Virus record (IMG/VR): IMGVR_UViG_3300043256_000135
Location: 1 to 64,000 of that record
DNA length: 64,000 bases
Origin: a virus
Direction: 5' to 3' (one strand)
The notes under the pieces were generated by a model that did not search any database, had not been told where the DNA came from, and saw only the letters and a list, made by a program, of their open reading frames with translations. The translations under genes were made by a program, and so were the position numbers. Positions 3,034 through 63,418 of this stretch are shown here, piece by piece; position 1 is the first letter of the stretch, and each line of letters begins with the position of its first letter.

Positions 3034-3069
3034 ATCCTACCACAGTTCCAAGCGCGAGGTCGGACAATT
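3034..3069 (-). promoter_or_regulatory. Leaderless-type promoter with upstream AATTGTCCGACC box
   Basis: Minus strand: GAATTGTCCGACC, spacer, CTGTGGTAGGAT (-10 at 3034-3039), 5 bases, ATG at 3028. Confidence 0.7.
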
Positions 3070-3081
3070 CTGAGAAAAACA

Positions 3082-3660: not shown

Positions 3661-3885
3661 TTACAGCTCAGGGATCAGACTGCCGGCGGCGTTACTGAAT
3701 CGGGTCCACAGGCTCCATATGTGTCGTGACCCAAAGGCCAACCACTCCAGGAACCCAATGGGTCCGGCAACGCATAGCACGCACAGGATCAGCACGGGGA
3801 GCACGACTATACGAATCAGGAACCACAGGATGACCCACAGGATCAGCCCGGTGGTCCGGCAGCAGATCCCTAAGCGCCCCAACAT
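3661..3885 (-). CDS. Small membrane protein, 74 aa
   Basis: One long hydrophobic stretch (GLILWVILWFLIRIVVLPVL onward) that could form two membrane helices, followed by a polar tail ending SLIPEL. The start overlaps the previous stop as TGATG. It is the last member of a cluster of small membrane and secreted proteins (3661-4960) that could be a lysis or envelope module; the role is inference. Confidence 0.55.
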   Translation of the reverse strand: MLGRLGICCRTTGLILWVILWFLIRIVVLPVLILCVLCVAGPIGFLEWLAFGSRHIWSLWTRFSNAAGSLIPEL

Positions 3886-4187
3886 CAGGCCAGCCCTGCA
3901 GCTCGCGCGGCCATGGCCAACAGGCCCTTGGCCAATGCTTGCAGGCGTTCGTCCAGAGCGTCAGCGCGGTTGACGGTGGCCCCGGCACCCATCAGCAGGA
4001 CATTGACGGCCTCATCTTCGACAGCTTCGTAGAAGCCCGCATCGTCGCGAAGCGGCGCCAAGTAGCGCATGCGTTCAGCGACATAGTCGCGCACCTCGGT
4101 CAGATCCCCTGTCAGCTCCACGCGGATGTCCGTCGCGGTATCCTTCAGGGCGGCGATGAACTCATCAGCCAGTAGTTTGAAATCCAT
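3885..4187 (-). CDS. Unknown 100-aa helical protein
   Basis: Begins MDFKLLADEFIAALKDTATD and is mostly predicted helix rich in Ala, Glu and Asp, with no membrane segment. The start at 4187 is set by the TGGAGAC ribosome-binding site. It sits between a 32-aa membrane peptide and a 74-aa membrane protein in the putative envelope cluster. No family is recognised. Confidence 0.6.
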   Translation of the reverse strand: MDFKLLADEFIAALKDTATDIRVELTGDLTEVRDYVAERMRYLAPLRDDAGFYEAVEDEAVNVLLMGAGATVNRADALDERLQALAKGLLAMAARAAGLA

Positions 4188-4212
4188 GATTCTTGTCTCC
4201 AGGGGTTGAAAA

Positions 4213-4311
4213 TCAATTGCGGTTGCGGATGTAGCTGCGGATGCCGGTATAGAGCCAGCCCAGCAGCGACCCGGTAGTGTACCCGACACAGAAAGCGATG
4301 ACAAGGATCAT
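4213..4311 (-). CDS. 32-aa single-span membrane peptide
   Basis: Sequence begins MILVIAFCVGYTTGSLLGWL and ends with the basic tail RSYIRNRN, a typical N-out/C-in single-span topology by the positive-inside rule. The ATG overlaps the stop of the upstream gene by ATGA. Too short for homology-based naming. Confidence 0.5.
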   Translation of the reverse strand: MILVIAFCVGYTTGSLLGWLYTGIRSYIRNRN

Positions 4312-4676
4312 AACTGCGCCGCCCGCAGCCCAAATTGACGGAACGTCTCCCGCTTGGACCCGGCGGTCCCCTCGGTCAGTTCACCATTGGCCACGCGGGC
4401 GTCGACACCAGCCTGGGCCCATGGTTCCAAACTGGACCACAGCTCGCGGATCTCGTCCGCACGATTACGGTCACCGGAGCCCAGGGCCTCTTTCATCTCG
4501 CCCAGCAGCACCTCCGCGTCCAGGGTATCGGTCTCCCCTTCCACGCCAGAGCGAACGGCTGGTGCAATCACACGGTCCAGGGCGACCAGCATGGCGGGCA
4601 TCAGGACTCGCTCACGAGCCAGGGTGCCACAGGTGGCCGTAGCCATCAACGTCAACAGAATCAGTAGGCGCTTCAT
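4308..4676 (-). CDS. Exported 122-aa protein with N-terminal signal
   Basis: The N-terminus MKRLLILLTLMATATCGTLA is a signal peptide, with a cysteine placed where a lipoprotein signal would be cut, although the box is not canonical. The mature part is acidic and helical. Start overlaps the upstream stop by ATGA. Lying directly below a holin-like gene, it could be an envelope or lysis accessory, but it does not resemble known Rz/Rz1 spanins. Confidence 0.55.
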   Translation of the reverse strand: MKRLLILLTLMATATCGTLARERVLMPAMLVALDRVIAPAVRSGVEGETDTLDAEVLLGEMKEALGSGDRNRADEIRELWSSLEPWAQAGVDARVANGELTEGTAGSKRETFRQFGLRAAQL

Positions 4677-4960
4677 CGGGCTGGCCTCGTGGCGGCTGCG
4701 GCTTCGCGTACAGCGATCTCGCGGTTGACCAGAATCACGTCGGCCCGTTCAGCGGCAGCAACCTGCCCGGCCACTTGCAGCTTCTTCACCGAAGAGCGGT
4801 GCGAGGAGTAGCCCAGGGCTGCACCCATGGCCACCACGATGCCGGCGATCTCGCCCCACACGGTGCCAGAGAAGTAGGTCACGGCAAAGCCGGCGATGGT
4901 CACCAGCGAGATGAGAAGGAACTCAGTGGACGATCGTCCAGGTTTGATTTCAGTCGTCAT
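4673..4960 (-). CDS. Holin-like two-span membrane protein
   Basis: 95 aa: a short charged N-terminus (MTTEIKPGRSSTEF), a first hydrophobic helix (LLISLVTIAGFAVTYF), a second (IAGIVVAMGAALGYSS), then a charged helical tail. The STEFxxxxLxT opening and two-span layout resemble phage holin-like membrane proteins. Ribosome-binding site GGAGAC lies 8 bases upstream. No endolysin neighbours it, so the role is inferred from topology only. Confidence 0.45.
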   Translation of the reverse strand: MTTEIKPGRSSTEFLLISLVTIAGFAVTYFSGTVWGEIAGIVVAMGAALGYSSHRSSVKKLQVAGQVAAAERADVILVNREIAVREAAAATRPAR

Positions 4961-5174
4961 ATTGTAAGTCTCCAGAGGTCATGTGTTGGGTCAGCGTTGA
5001 GCAGGGTGTTACCCACCTCCAGCCCTTCCCGCCGAATAGGGAAATCGTGGCCACAGCACCGCATCGAAATTCCGCACGCTGTACAGTTTCGTTGTGCTCG
5101 TCCATGCCCAAGGTGTCCAAAACCGCTGGGCACACGGGGCAGATCGGCAGCTTGATATCGGCGTAGTGGGTCAT
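4950..5174 (-). CDS. Unknown 74-aa protein with CPVC motif
   Basis: Contains ICPVCPA and further Cys residues (FRCGA, TPCST), perhaps a small metal site. Its end overlaps the start of the holin-like gene by 11 bases. No clear ribosome-binding site is visible, and translation may depend on the upstream gene, which ends 3 bases away. Confidence 0.5.
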   Translation of the reverse strand: MTHYADIKLPICPVCPAVLDTLGMDEHNETVQRAEFRCGAVATISLFGGKGWRWVTPCSTLTQHMTSGDLQYDD

Positions 5175-5176
5175 AA

Positions 5177-5680
5177 TTATTCAGGTCCGTCTAGGATGCG
5201 AGGATTATAGGCGTCTTCCCGTTCCTCTGCGCATCGGTCCATCTCGGCTTGCATCCTTGCGATCGTGCGGGTCAGCTCGCCGTTGGTCACGTTCACCTTC
5301 GCCAAAGCGTTGGCCCGGCCGATGACGGCCTCGCAGTCGATCTGCGAGGTGCCCATTGCACACGCTAGCCGGCGCAGCAGTACGGCGTCCACGTCCAACG
5401 ATCCGGCCAGGGCGTCGCGGATGGCGAGGTACTTGTCGGCCTGCGCGCGAATAACACGGAGACGTGCGAGAGCCTCGGTCTCGCACATGGGCCGAGTCTC
5501 TCCGCCCATCGTTTCATGCAGGCATCCGACGAACTTGAACATCTCCAAATCCTTCTGCTCTAGGGCCAGTGCGGCCACTTCGACCTGGATCTGGAACTCG
5601 GCGAGGCGATTGCTCAGCGCATCGCGCTGAGCGATGGCGGTTGCACGCTCGCGCCATAGTCGGATAGTCTTGCGGATCAT
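5177..5680 (-). CDS. Unknown 167-aa coiled-coil protein
   Basis: N-terminal basic helix (MIRKTIRLWRERATAIAQRD) followed by long heptad-rich stretches with few prolines, consistent with a coiled coil. The ATG at 5680 overlaps the stop of the GGDEF gene by ATGA and has GGAAG upstream; a GTG at 5692 is the alternative. It could be a partner of the GGDEF protein given the coupling, but this is only positional. Confidence 0.55.
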   Translation of the reverse strand: MIRKTIRLWRERATAIAQRDALSNRLAEFQIQVEVAALALEQKDLEMFKFVGCLHETMGGETRPMCETEALARLRVIRAQADKYLAIRDALAGSLDVDAVLLRRLACAMGTSQIDCEAVIGRANALAKVNVTNGELTRTIARMQAEMDRCAEEREDAYNPRILDGPE

Positions 5681-6159
5681 GTTTTCTTCCACGCGGCTTT
5701 GCGCCGTTCGAGTTCCTTGTCGGTCTGATTCAGTATACCACAGAGATCGGCGTCCGGCGCAACATGCGCCACGGCTCCGATGGCGGCCACGCGCGTGCCG
5801 TCCGCTAGGACGTTTACACCCACCACAGCCTCGATCCTGTTGCGAACTTTTGTGCCATCACTACACCACGGCAGCACCACGGCGAACTCATCCCCGCCGT
5901 GCCGGTAGACCGTGTCCCACCCACCACTGCGGATAGCAACGCCGACGCGGTACAGCAGCTTGTCGGCGCCGAAGTGACCCAGCACCTCATTGGCCCGCTT
6001 CAGGTTCGTCATGTCGAGCAGCACCACACCGAACGTAATGCCCATGGCCTGGAGCAGCCGACAGTAGTCCATGAACGCGCGCCGGTTGCCCAGGCCCGTC
6101 AGGTCGTCTGTCCGGGCGTCTGTCATCAGACGCACGGCTAGTTGTTCCAGGTCGTTCAT
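5677..6159 (-). CDS. Stand-alone GGDEF-domain nucleotide cyclase
   Basis: Nearly the whole 160-aa protein is a GGDEF domain: DDLTGLGNRRAF at residues 18-29, LLDMTNLKRANEVLGHFGAD at 47-66, and an intact HGGDEF at 87-92. Aligned to PleD-type cyclases, the metal Asp (49), the guanine-contacting Asn (57) and Asp (66), and the signature Glu are all kept, so activity is expected. The RxxD inhibitory site is absent (GGWD instead). No sensor or membrane domain. Product could be c-di-GMP or a related dinucleotide. The start overlaps the upstream stop by ATGA. Confidence 0.85.
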   Translation of the reverse strand: MNDLEQLAVRLMTDARTDDLTGLGNRRAFMDYCRLLQAMGITFGVVLLDMTNLKRANEVLGHFGADKLLYRVGVAIRSGGWDTVYRHGGDEFAVVLPWCSDGTKVRNRIEAVVGVNVLADGTRVAAIGAVAHVAPDADLCGILNQTDKELERRKAAWKKT

Positions 6160-6320
6160 GATGGTCTGATCCGGAACTTCCGTGTGGACATGCAGAGGCG
6201 CATGTTGTTGACCACCTCAATGGCCTCATCCCGATTACCTGTCCACCTCTGGCCTTCGGAGCGGATGCGGATGATTGAGGTCCAGACCCCGTCACCCTTG
6301 AATTGCACGTAGTAGGTCAT
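6156..6320 (-). CDS. Unknown 54-aa protein
   Basis: Begins MTYYVQFKGDGVWTSI, likely a small beta-rich domain with a basic C-terminus (STRKFRIRPS). The start is set by GATGGAGAAAGC upstream. The stop overlaps the GGDEF start by ATGA. Confidence 0.5.
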   Translation of the reverse strand: MTYYVQFKGDGVWTSIIRIRSEGQRWTGNRDEAIEVVNNMRLCMSTRKFRIRPS

Positions 6321-6424
6321 GCTTTCTCCATCATAATGATATCGGAGTAGCAGCCCTCTGGCCGGTACCACAGGATCCAGCATCCATCCCTCAGCTCCCA
6401 TTCCACACTGCGCAGGGGAATCAT
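6317..6424 (-). CDS. Unknown 35-aa peptide
   Basis: Begins MIPLRSVEWELRDGCWILWY. It is connected by ATGA overlaps at both ends, to the 189-aa gene above and the 54-aa gene below, which is good evidence that it is translated. No function assigned. Confidence 0.45.
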   Translation of the reverse strand: MIPLRSVEWELRDGCWILWYRPEGCYSDIIMMEKA

Positions 6425-6990
6425 ACCTTCCCCTTCAAGCTCTTCGCCAGCGCGCGGATGGCCGCTACGACGGATTCACCCTCCGGTGAGTCCGTCAGAG
6501 CACTCTTGATCAGTAACTCGCGGGCCTCTTTCTTCATCGCGCCTACGCGCAGGTCGCGCTCGCGGGCATCCTTCAGGGCCGTTAGAGCACCTAACCACAG
6601 GAGCCGCAAGCCCAAGGCGGCGTCGTCCAGCTCCACGTCTAAGGCGATGCGGAAGCGTGCCTCGTAAGTTTTCTGGTGATCCGAGAAGACCACCTGGGCC
6701 GTGGTCCCCGAGTCGCTGCCATCCTCGTACACGCGGTAAGTGGTCCTCTTGTGCATGTCATCTATGCCGCGCTGGATCAGTTGGCTAATCCCGCACAGCT
6801 GGTCGTAGTACTTCGCGGTGACCAGCTCGATCACGTGCTCATAGAACTTGTCGCGGCAGTAGATCACGTGTTGCTCGCAAGCGGCCACATCATGCGCGGC
6901 CAGCTCGATCATCTCCCCGGCCACCAGCTTGACGGCGTCGGCCCGCGTCAGCTTGATCGCGGCCACGGCTTCTTGTGGGATGTCGGTCAT
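6421..6990 (-). CDS. Unknown 189-aa helical protein
   Basis: Mostly helical, with a central beta-rich segment near TTYRVYEDGSDSGTTAQVVF. It starts MTDIPQEAVAAIKLTRADAV and ends with basic AIRALAKSLKGKV. The start overlaps the stop of the 35-aa gene above; no strong ribosome-binding site. Lies in the small-gene operon below SSB. No family recognised. Confidence 0.6.
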   Translation of the reverse strand: MTDIPQEAVAAIKLTRADAVKLVAGEMIELAAHDVAACEQHVIYCRDKFYEHVIELVTAKYYDQLCGISQLIQRGIDDMHKRTTYRVYEDGSDSGTTAQVVFSDHQKTYEARFRIALDVELDDAALGLRLLWLGALTALKDARERDLRVGAMKKEARELLIKSALTDSPEGESVVAAIRALAKSLKGKV

Positions 6991-7094
6991 GATCTTTTCT
7001 TGGGCTTCGCCACCGTGCGGCCCAGTTCCAACTTGGCCAGCATCTTGTACAGCTCGCGCACCTTGCGCGCTTCGATCTTCTCGCGTTGGGTCAT
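6987..7094 (-). CDS. Basic 35-aa peptide
   Basis: Sequence MTQREKIEARKVRELYKM onward is a single charged helix ending in KPKKRS. It is coupled to the genes on both sides by overlapping start and stop codons (TGATG upstream, ATGA downstream). Confidence 0.45.
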   Translation of the reverse strand: MTQREKIEARKVRELYKMLAKLELGRTVAKPKKRS

Positions 7095-7189
7095 CAGTCC
7101 AGCCCTTTTGCCAGTTTCCAGAACAAGGCGCACATCATGATTACTAGGATGCTGACCAGCACCATCCCCCAGATGTCAATGGCGCTCAT
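7094..7189 (-). CDS. 31-aa single-span membrane peptide
   Basis: Begins MSAIDIWGMVLVSILVIMMC with one hydrophobic helix and a short positive tail (KLAKGLD). The ATG overlaps the SSB stop as TAATG, so it is translated from the SSB transcript. Confidence 0.45.
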   Translation of the reverse strand: MSAIDIWGMVLVSILVIMMCALFWKLAKGLD

Positions 7190-7569
7190 TAGAAGGGCAC
7201 CGTGTCAGAGTCGGCCGGCGCCGAAGCGGCGGCGTCCGTCTCACGCTTCGACCCAACGAACTGGAAGCCGTTCACGATCACGGCCAGCTTCGATCGGTTT
7301 CCGCCATCCTGGGCCACCCACGTGGAAAAGTCCAGCTTGCCGTCGATGAAGATCGGGTCGCCCTTCTTGAGGTACTTCGCGATTGCTTCGCCGGTCTTGC
7401 CGAACGCGGTCAAGTCCACGAACGTAGTGCTCTCGCACTTCTCACCGTTGCGGGTGAACCGTTCGTTGACGGCCATGCCGAACTTGACGTACGCCTTGCC
7501 ACTTTGGGAGTAGCGCAGCTCGGGATCGCGGGTTAGGTTCCCGCCCAGAAATACCTTATTGAATTGCAT
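7189..7569 (-). CDS. ssb: Single-stranded DNA-binding protein
   Basis: The 126-aa protein has the SSB OB-fold pattern: MQFNKVFLGGNLTRDPELRY, then FGMAVNERF, STTFVDLTAFGKTGEAIAKY and LKKGDPIFIDGKL, ending in the acidic tip DSDTVPF used to recruit partner proteins. It would coat single-stranded DNA during replication by the phage polymerase and primase-helicase. The start at 7569 lies 14 bases inside the end of the HNH gene, so the two are translationally overlapped. Confidence 0.93.
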   Translation of the reverse strand: MQFNKVFLGGNLTRDPELRYSQSGKAYVKFGMAVNERFTRNGEKCESTTFVDLTAFGKTGEAIAKYLKKGDPIFIDGKLDFSTWVAQDGGNRSKLAVIVNGFQFVGSKRETDAAASAPADSDTVPF

Positions 7570-7981
7570 GTCTTCGCCCTGTCTTGATTTGTGAAATGAG
7601 ACTACTGGTTACGTTATAGTCTACTGCAATGTTACGCTGTAGGTCGCCCTTTTCCAAACGTTTTCGAATGTCCTGTACCTGTTCGTCGGTCAGCTTTCTG
7701 GTCCCGCGTCGTCCTCGCTCGTCCATGTCACGTGTGTTGTCGGCATGCGTGCCCAGTTCCAAGTGATCGGGCCGGACGCACCGCAGCACGTCGCACTTAT
7801 GGCGTACGAGCATACCGTCAGGAATTGGGCCATGGGTTAGGATCCACGCCACTCGATGTGCAATCTGTTGTTTCCCCTTGTAGCGCACCTGCCCATAGCC
7901 AGCTCCGCGGAGGGACGCAGTCCATAGCCAGCAGTCACCGGTCTTGTCCACATTCTCCCAAAAAGGCGGTAACGGTCTCAT
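7556..7981 (-). CDS. HNH endonuclease with C-terminal helix-turn-helix
   Basis: 141 aa. CWLWTASLRGAGYGQ, AHRVAWILTHG, then HKCDVLRCVRPDHLELG are the HNH_3-type core, followed by NTRDMDERGRR and a helix-turn-helix-like tail (LTDEQVQDIRKRLEKGD, ISQIKTG). This layout is typical of free-standing homing-type HNH enzymes of phages. The ATG at 7981 overlaps the 37-aa gene stop by ATGA, and the 3' end overlaps the ssb start. Confidence 0.85.
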   Translation of the reverse strand: MRPLPPFWENVDKTGDCWLWTASLRGAGYGQVRYKGKQQIAHRVAWILTHGPIPDGMLVRHKCDVLRCVRPDHLELGTHADNTRDMDERGRRGTRKLTDEQVQDIRKRLEKGDLQRNIAVDYNVTSSLISQIKTGRRHAIQ

Positions 7982-8091
7982 GGTTGTTGACTCAGTTTTA
8001 GGAATTCCAGCCAGATCATGATGAACGCCACCGCGGAGCAGATGCGCACCACGGACAGCGAGTCCAGCTGGAGTAGTCTTGGAATCTTCAT
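7978..8091 (-). CDS. Possible 37-aa membrane peptide
   Basis: Begins MKIPRLLQLDSLSVVRICSA and contains a hydrophobic helix (AVAFIMIWLEFL). Its stop overlaps the HNH start by ATGA. The ATG directly abuts a TATGCT hexamer, tighter than the usual 5-base spacing, so the exact start is uncertain. Confidence 0.4.
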   Translation of the reverse strand: MKIPRLLQLDSLSVVRICSAVAFIMIWLEFLKLSQQP

Positions 8092-8102
8092 AGCATACCA
8101 CA
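8092..8102 (-). promoter_or_regulatory. Promoter-like element, atypical spacing
   Basis: Minus strand TGTGGTATGCT followed immediately by ATG (0 bases). It probably drives the HNH-ssb transcript, with a short leader. Confidence 0.5.
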
Positions 8103-8150
8103 CTGCGCGCTAGTCGGTCGAGTCTTTCTCGATAATCACACCATTGGGCA

Positions 8151-9152
8151 TCAGAAAATCTCCTTCATGGTGACCTTGGCTGCCAAGGTCACCAGCTTCT
8201 GTAATTTCGAGAAATCGACAACGGGATTCTTCAGCTTTTTGACAAACCCGCGCGTCTCCTCTTCGATGAAGTCCCAGTAAACCGTGCCGATGAAGCGCGG
8301 GATGATCTTGTGGCGGTACTCCTCGATGAAGGAATCTTCGATACCGTCCGGCCCAAAAAGGCTGTCGGCCTGTTCTTGTTCCAACATCGGAGCGATGTCA
8401 TTCGCCACGGCTAGCACGACCTTCGCGAACGTCTTCTCGATGAAAGCCGTGGAGCAGAACGCTTCCACGATTTCCTTCTCGATCTGCCGCCCGCCGTCGC
8501 GCAGCTTGGGCCGGTTGCTGAACGTCTCACACACCATCTTAGCCCACGGCTGCCGTCCCCACTTGTTGGACCAGTCGTAGTTCTTCAGGACGATACCTTC
8601 ACCCACACCTTCGGTCACGAGGTACTTATTGTCCTCATCGCGCAGCTTGATCAGTTCGTTCTCGCTCGGGTTCTCGATGATCGCCAGCGGCGTCAGCACG
8701 TCGATGCCCATCTCCATCATCGGATCGGCATATACTTCGTAGGGTAGGTACTTCCCGGTGGCGTGCGTGTAAACGTCGAAGACATAGAACCGGCGCCATG
8801 CCTCTGCCTCGTACGTCTTCAGATTGTGCGGCACCAGCCACGCCCCGTACACAATCAGGTGCGGGAACTGGAGCACGAACGTGCGCAGGGCGAGAGCCCG
8901 CGGGTCGTCGCTGCGCATCCACTTGAGAAAGCCTGCATTGTCTGCATCAGCAGACAATGCCCGCGTCCGCGAGCCGCACATTACCTCTGCCGTCGCGTCG
9001 CCGGTCGGGCAGGACCACACGCTCGCGTTGGTGCCGTCGATCTTGGGAAAGATATGTACGACGCCGAACCCTAGATCAGACACATCAGGGTGGGCGCTCC
9101 GCTCTAGGTGGTCGTAGCGTCGAAATTGGCCCTGCGTCGCTACTTCAGTCAC
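8151..9152 (-). CDS. RNA ligase, Rnl2-like nucleotidyltransferase
   Basis: 333 aa from a GTG start that overlaps the preceding stop. Motif I is HIFPKIDGTNASVW with the AMP-accepting Lys near residue 37; downstream EGIVLKNYD and WAKMV fit motifs IV and V of the RNA_ligase family. It would seal nicks in RNA, for example repairing tRNAs cut by host defences. The C-terminal third is helical. No polynucleotide kinase is seen nearby. Confidence 0.85.
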   Translation of the reverse strand: MTEVATQGQFRRYDHLERSAHPDVSDLGFGVVHIFPKIDGTNASVWSCPTGDATAEVMCGSRTRALSADADNAGFLKWMRSDDPRALALRTFVLQFPHLIVYGAWLVPHNLKTYEAEAWRRFYVFDVYTHATGKYLPYEVYADPMMEMGIDVLTPLAIIENPSENELIKLRDEDNKYLVTEGVGEGIVLKNYDWSNKWGRQPWAKMVCETFSNRPKLRDGGRQIEKEIVEAFCSTAFIEKTFAKVVLAVANDIAPMLEQEQADSLFGPDGIEDSFIEEYRHKIIPRFIGTVYWDFIEEETRGFVKKLKNPVVDFSKLQKLVTLAAKVTMKEIF

Positions 9153-9369
9153 GGCTAGACCACTTCTCGGGCGTGGATGTAAAGCCCTCATCATGTAGCT
9201 CGGTCTCGGGAATGCAGTCAACCAACGGCACTTCACGCTCACAGGCAATGATTGCGGTTAGCACGGCCCGCACGGTCGTCGGATCGGTGATTACCTGCAC
9301 GTCGGTGTCACCGACGTATGAGCGGGAGCCCTCGGGCTTGGGAACTTGGACGCGGATCTGTATGTTCAT
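9145..9369 (-). CDS. Unknown 74-aa protein with leaderless-type start
   Basis: Begins MNIQIRVQVPKPEGSRSYVG. The ATG at 9369 lies exactly 5 bases below TATACT, without a ribosome-binding site. The end overlaps the RNA ligase start. No family recognised. Confidence 0.55.
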   Translation of the reverse strand: MNIQIRVQVPKPEGSRSYVGDTDVQVITDPTTVRAVLTAIIACEREVPLVDCIPETELHDEGFTSTPEKWSSRD

Positions 9370-9374
9370 GGGAT

Positions 9375-9385
9375 AGTATACCACA
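9375..9385 (-). promoter_or_regulatory. Leaderless-type promoter
   Basis: Minus strand ATGTGGTATACT, 5 bases before ATG at 9369; an AAAATCTGACCC box lies at the -35 distance. Confidence 0.7.
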
Positions 9386-9400
9386 TGAAACGCAGGCGGG

Positions 9401-9721
9401 TCAGATTTTGATCTCGGAACAATCTCGCATCCACTTCTCTAAGTAGCCGGGGCCGCTCGGCTCCCGAGCGGCCGGGCACTGGAGTAGTAGGCTTACGGCG
9501 TTGCTAATGCCGCAGCGCCCGGTGTGCTGATCAGTCCACGCCTCGATGTAGTCCGGGATGTGTCGGGTGACTCCCATCTGATCCACACCGTGCGGCGGGC
9601 TACCAGTACGCACGCTCTGCCATTCGAACACAAAGTACGCGACCAGCAGGTTGAGCAACTCCGGCTGGTTTTCCGCCATCTTGCCCAACGTACGCCGCGT
9701 CGGCCTATTGTATTCAGCCAT
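9401..9721 (-). CDS. Unknown 106-aa protein with leaderless-type start
   Basis: Begins MAEYNRPTRRTLGKMAENQP. Helical N-terminal half, with aromatic-rich VAYFVFEWQSV. The ATG at 9721 is 6 bases below TATACT; the longer in-frame extension includes the promoter itself and is rejected. Lies between a terminator and the RNA ligase operon. Confidence 0.55.
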   Translation of the reverse strand: MAEYNRPTRRTLGKMAENQPELLNLLVAYFVFEWQSVRTGSPPHGVDQMGVTRHIPDYIEAWTDQHTGRCGISNAVSLLLQCPAAREPSGPGYLEKWMRDCSEIKI

Positions 9722-9727
9722 GCTGAC

Positions 9728-9738
9728 AGTATAGACCA
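9728..9738 (-). promoter_or_regulatory. Leaderless-type promoter, variant
   Basis: Minus strand ATGGTCTATACT, 6 bases before the ATG at 9721. The -10 is intact but the TGTGG part is altered. Confidence 0.5.
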
Positions 9739-9789
9739 TGGTGGCCCAGCCTTCAAGAGATGGGCATCTGAACGCAGGTGAATCCCATG

Positions 9790-9829
9790 AAAAAAAAATG
9801 CTGCCGGCGTCGGGATCCGCCGGCAGCAT
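9790..9829 (-). terminator. Rho-independent terminator
   Basis: Perfect 12-bp inverted repeat ATGCTGCCGGCG / CGCCGGCAGCAT with an 8-nt loop, followed on the minus strand by nine T residues. It lies directly after the gene ending at 9834 and closes the operon that begins near 13.5 kb or above. It is the only classical terminator I found in the window. Confidence 0.93.
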
Positions 9830-9833
9830 GGGA

Positions 9834-10184
9834 TCAGATTTTTAGTGGTGGGACTCCTTGAACAGGCCCGTTAGGGATCCGATGAGCGGATAGGCTCGCC
9901 GCGGCAAGACACTTGCGGACGGATAGGAACCGGACCACCTTGCGGGAGTTGCGTGGACCTGTGCGTGCGTCACTCGCCCGCAGGGTAGCGATTAGGATCC
10001 GCAGCATGACTAATGTGTTGCCGCGGGTCAATCCACACCAGAATGCTAGGGGTGTTGCCTCCGCCTTCCACAGGCGAGCATCGGTAGCGCCCCGCGCGCG
10101 TAGGGCGACCGACACTGCGCGGGCGATCAGGTACACCACGCGGGCTACCTCGCTCTGCGGAATGTTGTCGGGGTCAATGTTCAC
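9834..10184 (-). CDS. Unknown 116-aa protein
   Basis: Begins with GTG (VNIDPDNIPQSEVARVVYLI) overlapping the previous stop as GTGA. Helical and rich in Ala, Arg and Leu; ends GPVQGVPPLKI. It is the last gene before the terminator. No family recognised. Confidence 0.55.
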   Translation of the reverse strand: MNIDPDNIPQSEVARVVYLIARAVSVALRARGATDARLWKAEATPLAFWCGLTRGNTLVMLRILIATLRASDARTGPRNSRKVVRFLSVRKCLAAASLSAHRIPNGPVQGVPPLKI

Positions 10185-15174: not shown

Positions 15175-15383
15175 GATTCTTTCCTCTGGGTTCGCAGAGT
15201 CTCATCGCCTTTGATGGTAGCTCCGCAGAATGGACAGAACTTGATTGCAATGACGATCTGAGGTTCCCAGGCCAATACAAAGTCGGCCATGTCAGTAGGA
15301 ACCTCTTCGCCGGCCCGCGTTCCCATGATGCCGACTAGAAAGTGGCGGCGCATGGTGCAGCAATAAGTTTCCAGTTCACTCAT
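15171..15383 (-). CDS. Unknown 70-aa protein with CPFC motif
   Basis: Has CC near the N-terminus and FCPFCGATIKGDE near the C-terminus, one half of a zinc ribbon. It overlaps the SprT-like gene stop by ATGA. Confidence 0.5.
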   Translation of the reverse strand: MSELETYCCTMRRHFLVGIMGTRAGEEVPTDMADFVLAWEPQIVIAIKFCPFCGATIKGDETLRTQRKES

Positions 15384-16030
15384 AACCCCAGCTCCATGTC
15401 AGTGCCGCAGCAGCAAGTCGGCAGGCCCACGTCGATCCACTTCTGGGTCGTGCGCAGAGTATAGCCACACTCAACATCGCTACAGCTCACCTTGATCATG
15501 CGGGTGCCTTGCTTGGTAGTCGAGGACTTCGACAGCTCCGCGTGCGGGTAGGGCCCGAGGTTACCGGTCAGCGCCAGCAACTGGCTGGAGAGCTGCTCTC
15601 CAGCCACCGTCGCGGTCATCTTGCCTTCCAGCCCGATGGCCTTGGCCAGCTTGCGGAACGGCCCCTTGTGGCCCGCATCTTTGCCGACGATGGTGTGGAT
15701 CAGCTCGTGGATCATGATGTCTAGGACCCGGATGGGCTCGTCCAGCGCGGGGCTGATGAATATCTCGCAGGTCGCATCGGCACTGCTCTCCGAATGCCAC
15801 GCCTGCCCGATGGTCTTGCCTCGGCCACCCTTGGGCCAGCCGCAACTCAGCCTCAACTTTGGGTAGTCGGGCGCTCCCTGCTCGTCGAACAGCGAGCGGA
15901 CTTCCAGCGCGGCGGCGTTCAGCCACTGCTCTCGGGTCGCGTGCTTCTGCCCGGTGCATGCTTTCTTTGGCTTGAGCTTCTCGCGCAGCTTGGTCCGCAC
16001 TGCGCTGTTGAGTTTCATGATTGGGTCCAT
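15380..16030 (-). CDS. SprT-like zinc metalloprotease
   Basis: 216 aa. The active-site motif MIHELIHTIVG at residues 106-116 with a further His in GHKGPFRKLAKAIGL (about 121) matches SprT/SPRTN-type metalloproteases (HExxH plus a distal His). The C-terminal part carries cysteines VSCSDVECGY and TCCCGTD that resemble the SprT zinc ribbon. Host relatives act on DNA-bound proteins; for the phage this is inference. Leadered start with GAGGAAC. Confidence 0.85.
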   Translation of the reverse strand: MDPIMKLNSAVRTKLREKLKPKKACTGQKHATREQWLNAAALEVRSLFDEQGAPDYPKLRLSCGWPKGGRGKTIGQAWHSESSADATCEIFISPALDEPIRVLDIMIHELIHTIVGKDAGHKGPFRKLAKAIGLEGKMTATVAGEQLSSQLLALTGNLGPYPHAELSKSSTTKQGTRMIKVSCSDVECGYTLRTTQKWIDVGLPTCCCGTDMELGL

Positions 16031-30060: not shown

Positions 30061-30134
30061 TGGGGTGCTGCCGGGAATCGAACCCTGGTCTTCCGCGCCA
30101 CAGGCGGACGTTCTACCACTGAACTAGCAGCACC
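30061..30134 (-). tRNA. tRNA-His (anticodon GTG)
   Basis: Cloverleaf on the minus strand. Anticodon stem TCCGC/GCGGA frames the loop CTGTGGC with anticodon GTG. Read with G at -1 paired to C73, as bacterial tRNA-His requires, the acceptor is GTGCTGC/GCAGCAC, T8 and A9 are in place, and CCA is encoded (30063-30061). The T-arm is odd: with that register its stem needs a bulged A in CAGGG/CCCG. The whole acceptor can alternatively pair as GGTGCTG/CAGCACC with one T-stem mismatch. Confidence 0.88.
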
Positions 30135-53844: not shown

Positions 53845-54840
53845 TCAGTTGACGATCGTGATGTAGAACTGACCGAGGTCGGCCGAGACCAGCTTCTGGT
53901 CGAAGGCCATCTGGATCTCGATCATGTCGGACTCACGCTTCTCGTCGCGGATGCGCTTCACGCGCATGCCGAGAGCACCGGCGCCCAAGAGGCCGGTCCA
54001 AGAGAAGGTGTATCCGGCGCTCGGGACGTAGAGCCCGGGGCTCGGCGCGGAGTAGACCAGCAGAGCGGACTTGCCGCCGATGAGGTCGATGCTGTCCGCA
54101 GCACCTTCAGTTGCCGAGTTGACGACCGAGTCCATGACCAGAACCTCTTCCAGCTCGAAGAGGGCGGCCAAGTTCTGGCGCATGACGATGGCGGGGCCAT
54201 TCGTCTGTCCACGGTCCAAGCGCCCGACGATGTCGGGGTGATCCAACAGAGCGTCGTAAACCTCGCGGCCCACGACCATCTTGTTGGGCCTGAAGCCCGT
54301 GCGTGCCTGCACCCGACGCTTACCGGCGCGAACGTCCTCAATCGGGGTCGAGTCCGCGCGGTCCCAGCGGCCTACCTCATTGGTAGACGGGGACGCGGAG
54401 TCAACACCGGTCTGGTCGGTCGTCCAGAGGCCGCTTCCGAAGAAGTCGGTGACCCACTGGAGTTCCTTCCGGATCATGCCCGCCTGAGACAGCCCTTCGG
54501 TCATCTCGCGGTCGGCCTGGAGCGGGGAATCGTAGTTCGCCCGGACCTGATCGGCCAGCATCTCGTGCAGTGCCCACACATCGCAGGCGTAGCTGTCCGT
54601 GCTTACCTCGTGGGTGCGCTGAGCGGACAGGGCGCCGGGGGCGCGCTTTTTCATCTCGTCACGGAACCAAGCTCCGCGAGGGATGGTGAAGTACTTGTCA
54701 GTCTGCTTTGCGACGGACAAGACAGGGAAGACCCGATCAGCGATGAATGCCTCGGGGTTCTGAGCGAACGCGATTGCGATCGTGGTCAGTGGCCGATCGA
54801 CATGAACGTCACCGCGACCCGGCTGGTTGATAGGTGCCAT
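53845..54840 (-). CDS. Major capsid protein, HK97 fold (phage E type)
   Basis: 331 aa: RVFPVLSVAKQTDKYFTIPR, GAWFRDEMKKRAPGALSAQ, THEVSTDSYACDVWALHEML and TGFRPNKMVVGREVYDALLD are the usual landmarks of this capsid family. It is preceded by a decoration-type gene and the protease/scaffold gene. Start ATG at 54840 with AAGGAAAC upstream. Confidence 0.92.
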   Translation of the reverse strand: MAPINQPGRGDVHVDRPLTTIAIAFAQNPEAFIADRVFPVLSVAKQTDKYFTIPRGAWFRDEMKKRAPGALSAQRTHEVSTDSYACDVWALHEMLADQVRANYDSPLQADREMTEGLSQAGMIRKELQWVTDFFGSGLWTTDQTGVDSASPSTNEVGRWDRADSTPIEDVRAGKRRVQARTGFRPNKMVVGREVYDALLDHPDIVGRLDRGQTNGPAIVMRQNLAALFELEEVLVMDSVVNSATEGAADSIDLIGGKSALLVYSAPSPGLYVPSAGYTFSWTGLLGAGALGMRVKRIRDEKRESDMIEIQMAFDQKLVSADLGQFYITIVN

Positions 54841-62393: not shown

Positions 62394-62906
62394 CTACTGA
62401 AGTTCAGGTGGAATTGGAGTCAGAATGAACGAATGGGACTCACTTGTTGAATCGAAGGGATCGTCCGTATCGTTATGAACTATCGGCGAGACGTAGCGGA
62501 ACGGGATCCTCACCTTCCCTGAGATCTTCATCTCGTTCCCTACGCCCGTCGAATACACCAACGCTCCATCCAACCACAAACAGTTTCGCAATTGGTCTGC
62601 CGTCATCACGCCTTCAGCTGTCGTCGTCGGATCGGTCGTTGGCTTGCCGTCAAAGCCTGTCGTGGTGTTGCTGAACGACAAGTAGGCTAGAATCCCCTGA
62701 CCGATTACGGGCACTGTGTCGAAACTGTCGATGAACAACTCGTACATGTAGAACTCGGAGCGCGGAGCGACACCGAGATCATGGAACGAGCCCATCACCA
62801 CGCCGTCAGCAGCCAGCCCACCGAGGTCCAGGAGTTCATCTCCGCCAGTGGCGGCATCGGTCCACGTCCGCGATGCCTCGGGATTGACGTAGAGCTTGTT
62901 GACCAT
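62394..62906 (-). CDS. Virion appendage protein, paralog 1 of a tandem pair
   Basis: 170 aa beginning MVNKLYVNPEASRTWTDAAT and ending HSFILTPIPPELQ. Its neighbour has the same length, the same ends, and shared blocks (TTDPTTTAEG, LAADxVVMGSF, AYLSFSNTTTGFDGK). Beta-rich. A function in an appendage next to the LamG protein is likely from position. Confidence 0.68.
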   Translation of the reverse strand: MVNKLYVNPEASRTWTDAATGGDELLDLGGLAADGVVMGSFHDLGVAPRSEFYMYELFIDSFDTVPVIGQGILAYLSFSNTTTGFDGKPTTDPTTTAEGVMTADQLRNCLWLDGALVYSTGVGNEMKISGKVRIPFRYVSPIVHNDTDDPFDSTSESHSFILTPIPPELQ

Positions 62907-63418
62907 TACTGGAGTTCAGGCGGGATCGGTGTCAACACGACCTTATGCGCATCCGATGTAGACAATAGAGCGTCGGCTGTGTTGTTATGAAGTACTGGCG
63001 CTACATACCGGTGCGGGATATGAATGATCCCCGAAACTTTGAGTTCATTGGCTGCAGTCGTCGAGTAGACACTAGCGGCATCCACCAGCTTGACATTTCG
63101 CAATTGATCTGTCGTCATCGTGCCTTCCGCAGTCGTCGTCGGATCCGTAGTAGGGTTGCCGTCGAAGTTCGTCGTAGCATTACTGAATGACAGATAAAAC
63201 AGCACCGACTCACCGACTACTGGTGCGGTATCGAACCCGTCGATAGTCACCTCATACATGTAGTCTGCGGGCTGCGCTCCAGCACCACGATCGAGGAACG
63301 AACCCATGACCACGGCGTCTGCGGCCAACCCGCCTGCATCCATGAGTTCGGCACCGCCAGTAGTCGCGTCAGACCAATCAATCGCGGTCTCGGGATTGAT
63401 GTAGAGTTTGTTGACCAT
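62906..63418 (-). CDS. Virion appendage protein, paralog 2 of a tandem pair
   Basis: 170 aa beginning MVNKLYINPETAIDWSDATT and ending HKVVLTPIPPELQ, clearly related to the next gene down by eye over its full length. Start and stop overlap at both ends (62906 and 63418). The pair is a tandem duplication that has diverged mostly in the middle. Confidence 0.68.
   Translation of the reverse strand: MVNKLYINPETAIDWSDATTGGAELMDAGGLAADAVVMGSFLDRGAGAQPADYMYEVTIDGFDTAPVVGESVLFYLSFSNATTNFDGNPTTDPTTTAEGTMTTDQLRNVKLVDAASVYSTTAANELKVSGIIHIPHRYVAPVLHNNTADALLSTSDAHKVVLTPIPPELQ

Follow-up and report, generated by a model that had tools for sequence, protein, structure and literature searches.

A solo GGDEF gene of a tailed phage and its apparent kinship with GGDEF domains of giant phage proteins

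Results

The GGDEF gene and its phage

The stretch of DNA analysed here, which we call the window, covers the first 64,000 bases of a virus record that is 76,449 bases long. It contains a solo GGDEF gene that encodes a protein of 160 amino acids, hereafter P0001 (Table 1). At either end it shares an ATGA sequence with the adjacent open reading frame (6156-6159 at the start codon, 5677-5680 at the stop codon), and it thus has the appearance of an ordinary gene within a compact operon. The small upstream ORF and the GGDEF gene may be translationally coupled.

The record is that of a tailed phage, because it contains a terminase large subunit (found in L002), a major head protein, a recognised tail protein, a single-strand DNA-binding protein, an RNA ligase and a Dda-like helicase. 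No tyrosine integrase was found in the record, so the phage may be lytic. Neither a c-di-GMP riboswitch nor any other known regulatory RNA was detected in the window, only a tRNA. Searches for families other than EAL and PilZ recognised no known c-di-GMP target in the phage.

Several other features of the record deserve mention. The GGTCGGACAATTC repeat occurs between small genes in 4 copies (0.09 expected by chance), possibly as a regulatory element that recurs in this region. The gene pairs g85/g86 and g93/g94, each made up of adjacent and similar genes, look like tandem duplications. The g29 product carries a HELIH motif (phrog_6361) and is 36% identical to an ORF of Bordetella phage CN1, which is annotated as an antirestriction protein and follows the GGDEF gene in CN1.

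Table 1. Positions of the GGDEF gene, its neighbours and other features (window numbering unless L002 is given)
Feature	Position	Strand	Remarks
Solo GGDEF gene (P0001)	5677..6159	-	ATG start, 160 aa; ATGA overlaps at both ends
Codons of the G88-G89-D90-E91-F92 signature loop	5884..5898	-	computed from the ATG at 6159, read in the sequence
Codons of G79-G80-W81-D82, at the place of the RxxD inhibitory motif	5914..5925	-	sequence and PleD alignment
Small upstream ORF, MTYYVQFKGDG...	6156..6320	-	54 aa; stop overlaps the GGDEF start; within ORF 6156..6401
g9	5177..5680	-	167 aa, no known function; start overlaps the GGDEF stop
g11	6421..6990	-	189 aa, no known function; homologue immediately upstream of GGDEF in L018/L098
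g8	4673..4960	-	membrane protein of 95 aa that may be holin-like; L099 and L197 have a homologue downstream of GGDEF
g7	4308..4676	-	122 aa with a hydrophobic N-terminus; L098, L099 and L197 have homologues downstream of GGDEF
g6	3885..4187	-	100 aa, no known function; homologues downstream of GGDEF in L098, L099, L197
Single-strand DNA-binding protein	7189..7569	-	phrog_44, E=1.8e-35; same strand as GGDEF
RNA ligase	8151..9152	-	phrog_548, E=2.7e-32; same strand as GGDEF
Major head protein	53845..54840	-	phrog_1005, E=3.9e-81
GGTCGGACAATTC repeat	614-633, 1257-1276, 1927-1946, 3058-3077		between small genes
g29	15380-16030		HELIH motif
tRNA-His	30062-30134	-	anticodon gtg
g85/g86 and g93/g94	window 62394-63418, L002 9384-9883		adjacent similar gene pairs

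Domain and predicted fold

Residues 16-156 of P0001 match the Pfam GGDEF family (PF00990) with 60.6 bits (cut-off 23.8, E=2e-16) over profile positions 2-157 of 161, i.e. the protein belongs to the family. In a search of the whole record it was found with E=1.2e-17, the match is therefore not due to chance, and no second GGDEF domain was found. The GGDEF domain fills the protein and a sensor domain is absent; this bears out the initial annotation, which had described a phage-encoded, stand-alone GGDEF protein without a sensor, and the genome is a true phage genome. With its single domain, the protein does not have the several domains of a polyvalent protein.

The AlphaFold monomer is a confident GGDEF fold (pLDDT 97, pTM 0.90), and its TM values against solved diguanylate cyclase domains are 0.7-0.8. 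Beyond this fold the model shows only one short helix at the N-terminus (residues 3-15), perhaps a remnant of the coiled-coil stalk that such enzymes usually have.

Active-site and inhibitory-site residues

The residues of P0001 were mapped by alignment to PleD, and we take their roles to be those established for PleD. The metal-binding aspartate (D49, PleD D327), the presumed phosphate lysines K54 (K332) and K154 (K442), R86 (R366) and the guanine contacts N57 (N335) and D66 (D344) are all present, and the GGDEF signature is intact from G88 to F92, including E91. In these respects the earlier claim that the signature, metal and guanine-contact residues are intact holds. PleD R446 is replaced by K158. 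The second aspartate of the DxDxFK motif, which is present in 78 of the 80 bacterial GGDEF domains nearest to P0001, is a threonine here (D-M-T-N-L-K). This substitution, overlooked in the initial annotation, is common to P0001 and its relatives L098, L099 and L100.

The inhibitory RxxD motif that would be expected five residues before GGDEF is absent; GGWD stands in its place as previously stated, so that the aspartate is kept and the arginine is not. An arginine is found 4-5 residues before this aspartate (R77), also in the three closest relatives, and given this residue the loop may possibly be a remodelled site. The further proposal that the missing motif makes synthesis free of feedback goes beyond the evidence: only 30 of the 80 sampled bacterial domains have RxxD, so that the lack of it is little evidence of unregulated synthesis.

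Two other assignments can be rejected from these residues. Without RxxD, P0001 is unlikely to be an I-site receptor of c-di-GMP. In the Hypr-type GGDEF proteins, i.e. cGAMP synthases, a serine presumably replaces the guanine-binding aspartate that corresponds to PleD D344, and a Hypr-type synthase is ruled out by the retention of D66.

Solo relatives on phage contigs

The nearest relatives of P0001 are all viral. Six further solo genes were found on phage contigs, and their products are 43-57% identical to P0001: L018 (=L098) 57%, L099 55%, L100 47%, L195 47%, L197 45% and L196 43%. They were recovered only by alignment-based searches; searches of viral contigs with the GGDEF protein, the RNA ligase or g11 as single queries gave no relatives. 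The best bacterial matches are 28-46% identical and mostly partial.

The neighbourhood is in part conserved. Homologues of g7 and g6 accompany the GGDEF gene in L098, L099 and L197, that of g8 in L099 and L197, and those of g9 and g11 in L098, where the g9 homologue (32% identical) lies immediately downstream of the GGDEF gene (L018/L098). In L098 and L099 the genes beyond this neighbourhood run on into terminase genes. L100 comes from a 62.6-kb relative of the P0001 phage (tail protein 56% identical, helicase 42%), in which the GGDEF gene is found at another location, on the opposite strand, and is flanked by copies of a 105-nt repeat. Copies of this repeat of about 105 nt (at 4601, 5142, 6471 and 7271, 71-97% identical) lie between successive small genes including GGDEF, and it looks like a repeated transcription-unit boundary. 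The solo GGDEF protein of L196 (2732-3358) has a hydrophobic N-terminal stretch and is possibly membrane-anchored, and that of L197 has RRED five residues before GGDEF.

The closest solo proteins, like the giant relatives described below, have retained the residues for GTP, metal and guanine binding, the remainder having drifted to 47-57% identity. Among P0001, L098 and L099 the dN/dS ratio is approximately 0.28-0.45, a crude value since the synonymous sites are near saturation; by this crude measure the gene is under purifying selection.

Giant-protein relatives and phylogeny

Four further relatives (L101-L104) are GGDEF domains that lie within phage proteins of 1500-2023 amino acids and are 29-40% identical to P0001. 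Three of the four share the DxxNLK and GHxGAD features with it. In contrast to P0001, which has no RxxD, L101-L103 have this motif with one extra residue before GGDEF. In the record of L101, a portal-like gene (PHROG match) and a gene with a weak head-protein match precede the giant gene; PF12236, a podovirus portal family, matched none of the giant-protein records but no control either, so that this negative carries no weight. The giant protein of L103 contains the LPD38 'large polyvalent protein associated' domain (29.3 bits, cut-off 27), and among the relatives of P0001 a polyvalent-protein domain was seen only there. This protein (3964-10029, 2022 aa), which also has a HELGH metallopeptidase-like motif and a possible ParB-like stretch, appears to be of the multidomain polyvalent type.

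In the phylogenetic tree P0001 and L098-L104 form one clade apart from the bacterial domains (support 95/91), and with three more solo members the support of this clade of solo and giant proteins is 99/93. A second phage clade (100/100) unites the solo proteins of Yuavirus and Vojvodinavirus with other giant proteins. The AU test found one common clade of both phage groups compatible with the data (p-AU 0.476), and a single clade of all solo proteins was borderline rejected (p=0.0499). Because both clades mix solo and giant forms, the trees indicate that the domain moved between the two, probably more than once. The initial annotation had overlooked this phage-only clade with domains of giant polyvalent-type proteins.

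Comparison with known proteins

Short GGDEF-only phage proteins are already known from Yuavirus (YuA gp44) and Vojvodinavirus; the group (phrog_5594) also includes MP1412_43 and CN1 gp42, and the YuA protein is mentioned in a review (PMC10333796). Like P0001 these are phage-encoded proteins of about 152-156 amino acids that consist of GGDEF only, lack RxxD and keep the catalytic Asp, Asn, Asp and Lys. The MP1412 gene precedes that of the terminase large subunit by about 5 kb. However, they are only about 35% identical to P0001 overall (41% over 95 aa), fall into the separate clade described above, have S/A-G-DEF instead of GGDEF, and have different neighbours. Bordetella phage LK3, which belongs to this group, has an integrase, whereas no tyrosine integrase was found in the P0001 phage. 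LK3 lysogens form more biofilm and the authors point to the GGDEF gene, a link that is a correlation only (PMC8471281).

GGDEF domains have also been reported in polyvalent proteins, for which injection and the use or disturbance of host cyclic-nucleotide signals were proposed (PMC5512222). Those domains are embedded in giant proteins, whereas that of P0001 stands alone and outside the virion module. The GGDEF proteins of Bacillus phage SP-15 and phage G are likewise phage-encoded, without a known sensor and among the closest viral structures, but they are longer (183 and 254 aa), have an N-terminal extension and fall on other tree branches.

With the bacterial enzymes PleD, WspR and SadC (PF00990), P0001 appears to share, by alignment and model, both the fold and the catalytic residues; it differs from them by the absence of a sensor, of the long coiled-coil stalk and of RxxD, and by the threonine in DxDxFK. 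Finally, mCpol/OptS of Panoptes is, like P0001, a small stand-alone palm-domain cyclase, yet OptS is nearly devoid of the GGDEF motif and uses ATP (PMC12657218). The intact motif rules out that P0001 is an mCpol/OptS protein.

At E<=1e-3, 89 of the 50,697 phage records gave a GGDEF match, some of these being bacterial-type cyclases; many matches in viral records came from typical bacterial sensor cyclases and were excluded. The earlier statement that GGDEF genes are rare in phages is thus right by number, but whole phage genera carry such a gene. No enzyme assay of a phage GGDEF protein was found in the open-licence literature.

Discussion

What is new here is the kinship between solo genes and giant-protein domains, which sequence comparison joins into phage-specific clades. 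As to function, a cyclic-dinucleotide synthase is the best guess, because the protein is stand-alone, its catalytic residues are intact and RxxD is missing, and the guanine-contact residues N57 and D66 predict c-di-GMP as the product. The conservation of the GTP, metal and guanine residues together with purifying selection argues for activity; the missing stalk and the threonine in DxDxFK call for caution. Weighing these features, we think that P0001 probably works as a diguanylate cyclase and produces c-di-GMP during infection of the cell. This would not mean, despite the lack of a sensor, that synthesis is constitutive: a diguanylate cyclase works only when two GGDEF domains come together, and P0001 keeps only the short helix at residues 3-15.

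The scenario that we infer is the following. P0001 would be a small diguanylate cyclase from a GGDEF lineage specific to phages, and its gene would be transcribed in an operon that has the replication genes on one side and the g8-g7-g6/terminase genes on the other. Two copies of the protein would pair, probably aided by the short N-terminal helix, each binding one GTP through N57, D66, K54, K154 and R86, with the metal held by D49 and the GGDEF loop. The two GTP molecules would be joined into c-di-GMP, which would be raised or locally supplied in the infected cell. In other phages the same domain resides in giant virion-module proteins of the polyvalent type, through which the activity would enter the cell with the DNA; some phages probably inject these giant proteins into their hosts. 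The benefit would most likely be host takeover via c-di-GMP, i.e. an infected cell that is less motile, more adhesive or changed at its surface, or, alternatively, the adjustment of a surface process that c-di-GMP controls.

It is unlikely, though conceivable, that P0001 is instead a catalytically weak or inactive module that binds GTP or proteins, e.g. by pairing with host diguanylate cyclases and inhibiting them. Many isolated GGDEF domains without a dimerising partner are weak enzymes, and P0001 is a solo domain without a proper dimerising stalk, with a threonine in DxDxFK and an apparently remodelled I-site loop. However, it has retained every residue needed for GTP and metal binding, and none of the seven solo members of the clade lacks any part of the GGDEF signature; GGDEF domains that lose catalysis usually lose the signature. 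Nor is the protein likely to act as an I-site c-di-GMP receptor without RxxD.

We find it improbable that the product serves counter-defence, i.e. that a flood of cyclic dinucleotide misleads or blocks CBASS, Panoptes or similar systems. What speaks for this is the kinship of P0001 with polyvalent-type GGDEF domains, for which interference with host nucleotide signals was proposed (PMC5512222), and the possible counter-defence neighbourhood in Yuavirus and Vojvodinavirus, in which the GGDEF gene adjoins genes annotated as antirestriction. On the other hand, the residues of P0001 predict c-di-GMP, and 2',3'-c-di-AMP or 3',2'-cGAMP is the product of those Panoptes cyclases that have been studied (PMC12657218). 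No defence-related neighbour or effector was recognised around the gene, and no PADLOC model matched the protein (2023 library, which may predate Panoptes), so that interference with CBASS, as suggested previously, finds no direct support. Moreover, in hosts whose immune STING proteins respond to c-di-GMP, its synthesis would trigger death. Counter-defence would need a nucleotide other than c-di-GMP for the best-known systems, or a host immune system that c-di-GMP can disturb.

A recently captured bacterial gene or an assembly contamination without a phage role is very improbable and largely refuted: GGDEF genes are abundant in bacteria and some GGDEF-positive phage records look like bacterial DNA, but this gene lies inside a phage operon with overlapping genes, related phage contigs share overlapping sets of neighbours around it, its viral relatives are closer (43-57%) than the mostly partial bacterial ones (28-46%), and dN/dS is below 1.

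Earlier phage GGDEF proteins, i.e. those of YuA and LK3 and the polyvalent proteins, were noted one at a time. Their kinship and the conserved catalytic residues make it a testable question whether phages produce c-di-GMP during infection and what use it is to them. At 160 amino acids, P0001 offers a simple way to learn whether a GGDEF domain on its own is enough for cyclase activity, and of these results it is the kinship with the giant virion-module proteins, confined to phages, that deserves to be followed. From the sequences, phages appear to keep a GGDEF signal-making tool as their own. As a tentative generalisation, which may well not hold, tailed phages would own at least two GGDEF lineages, deployed either solo after entry or within an injected giant protein of the virion module, and synthesis of c-di-GMP by phages would be a means of early host takeover that recurs and is maintained by selection.
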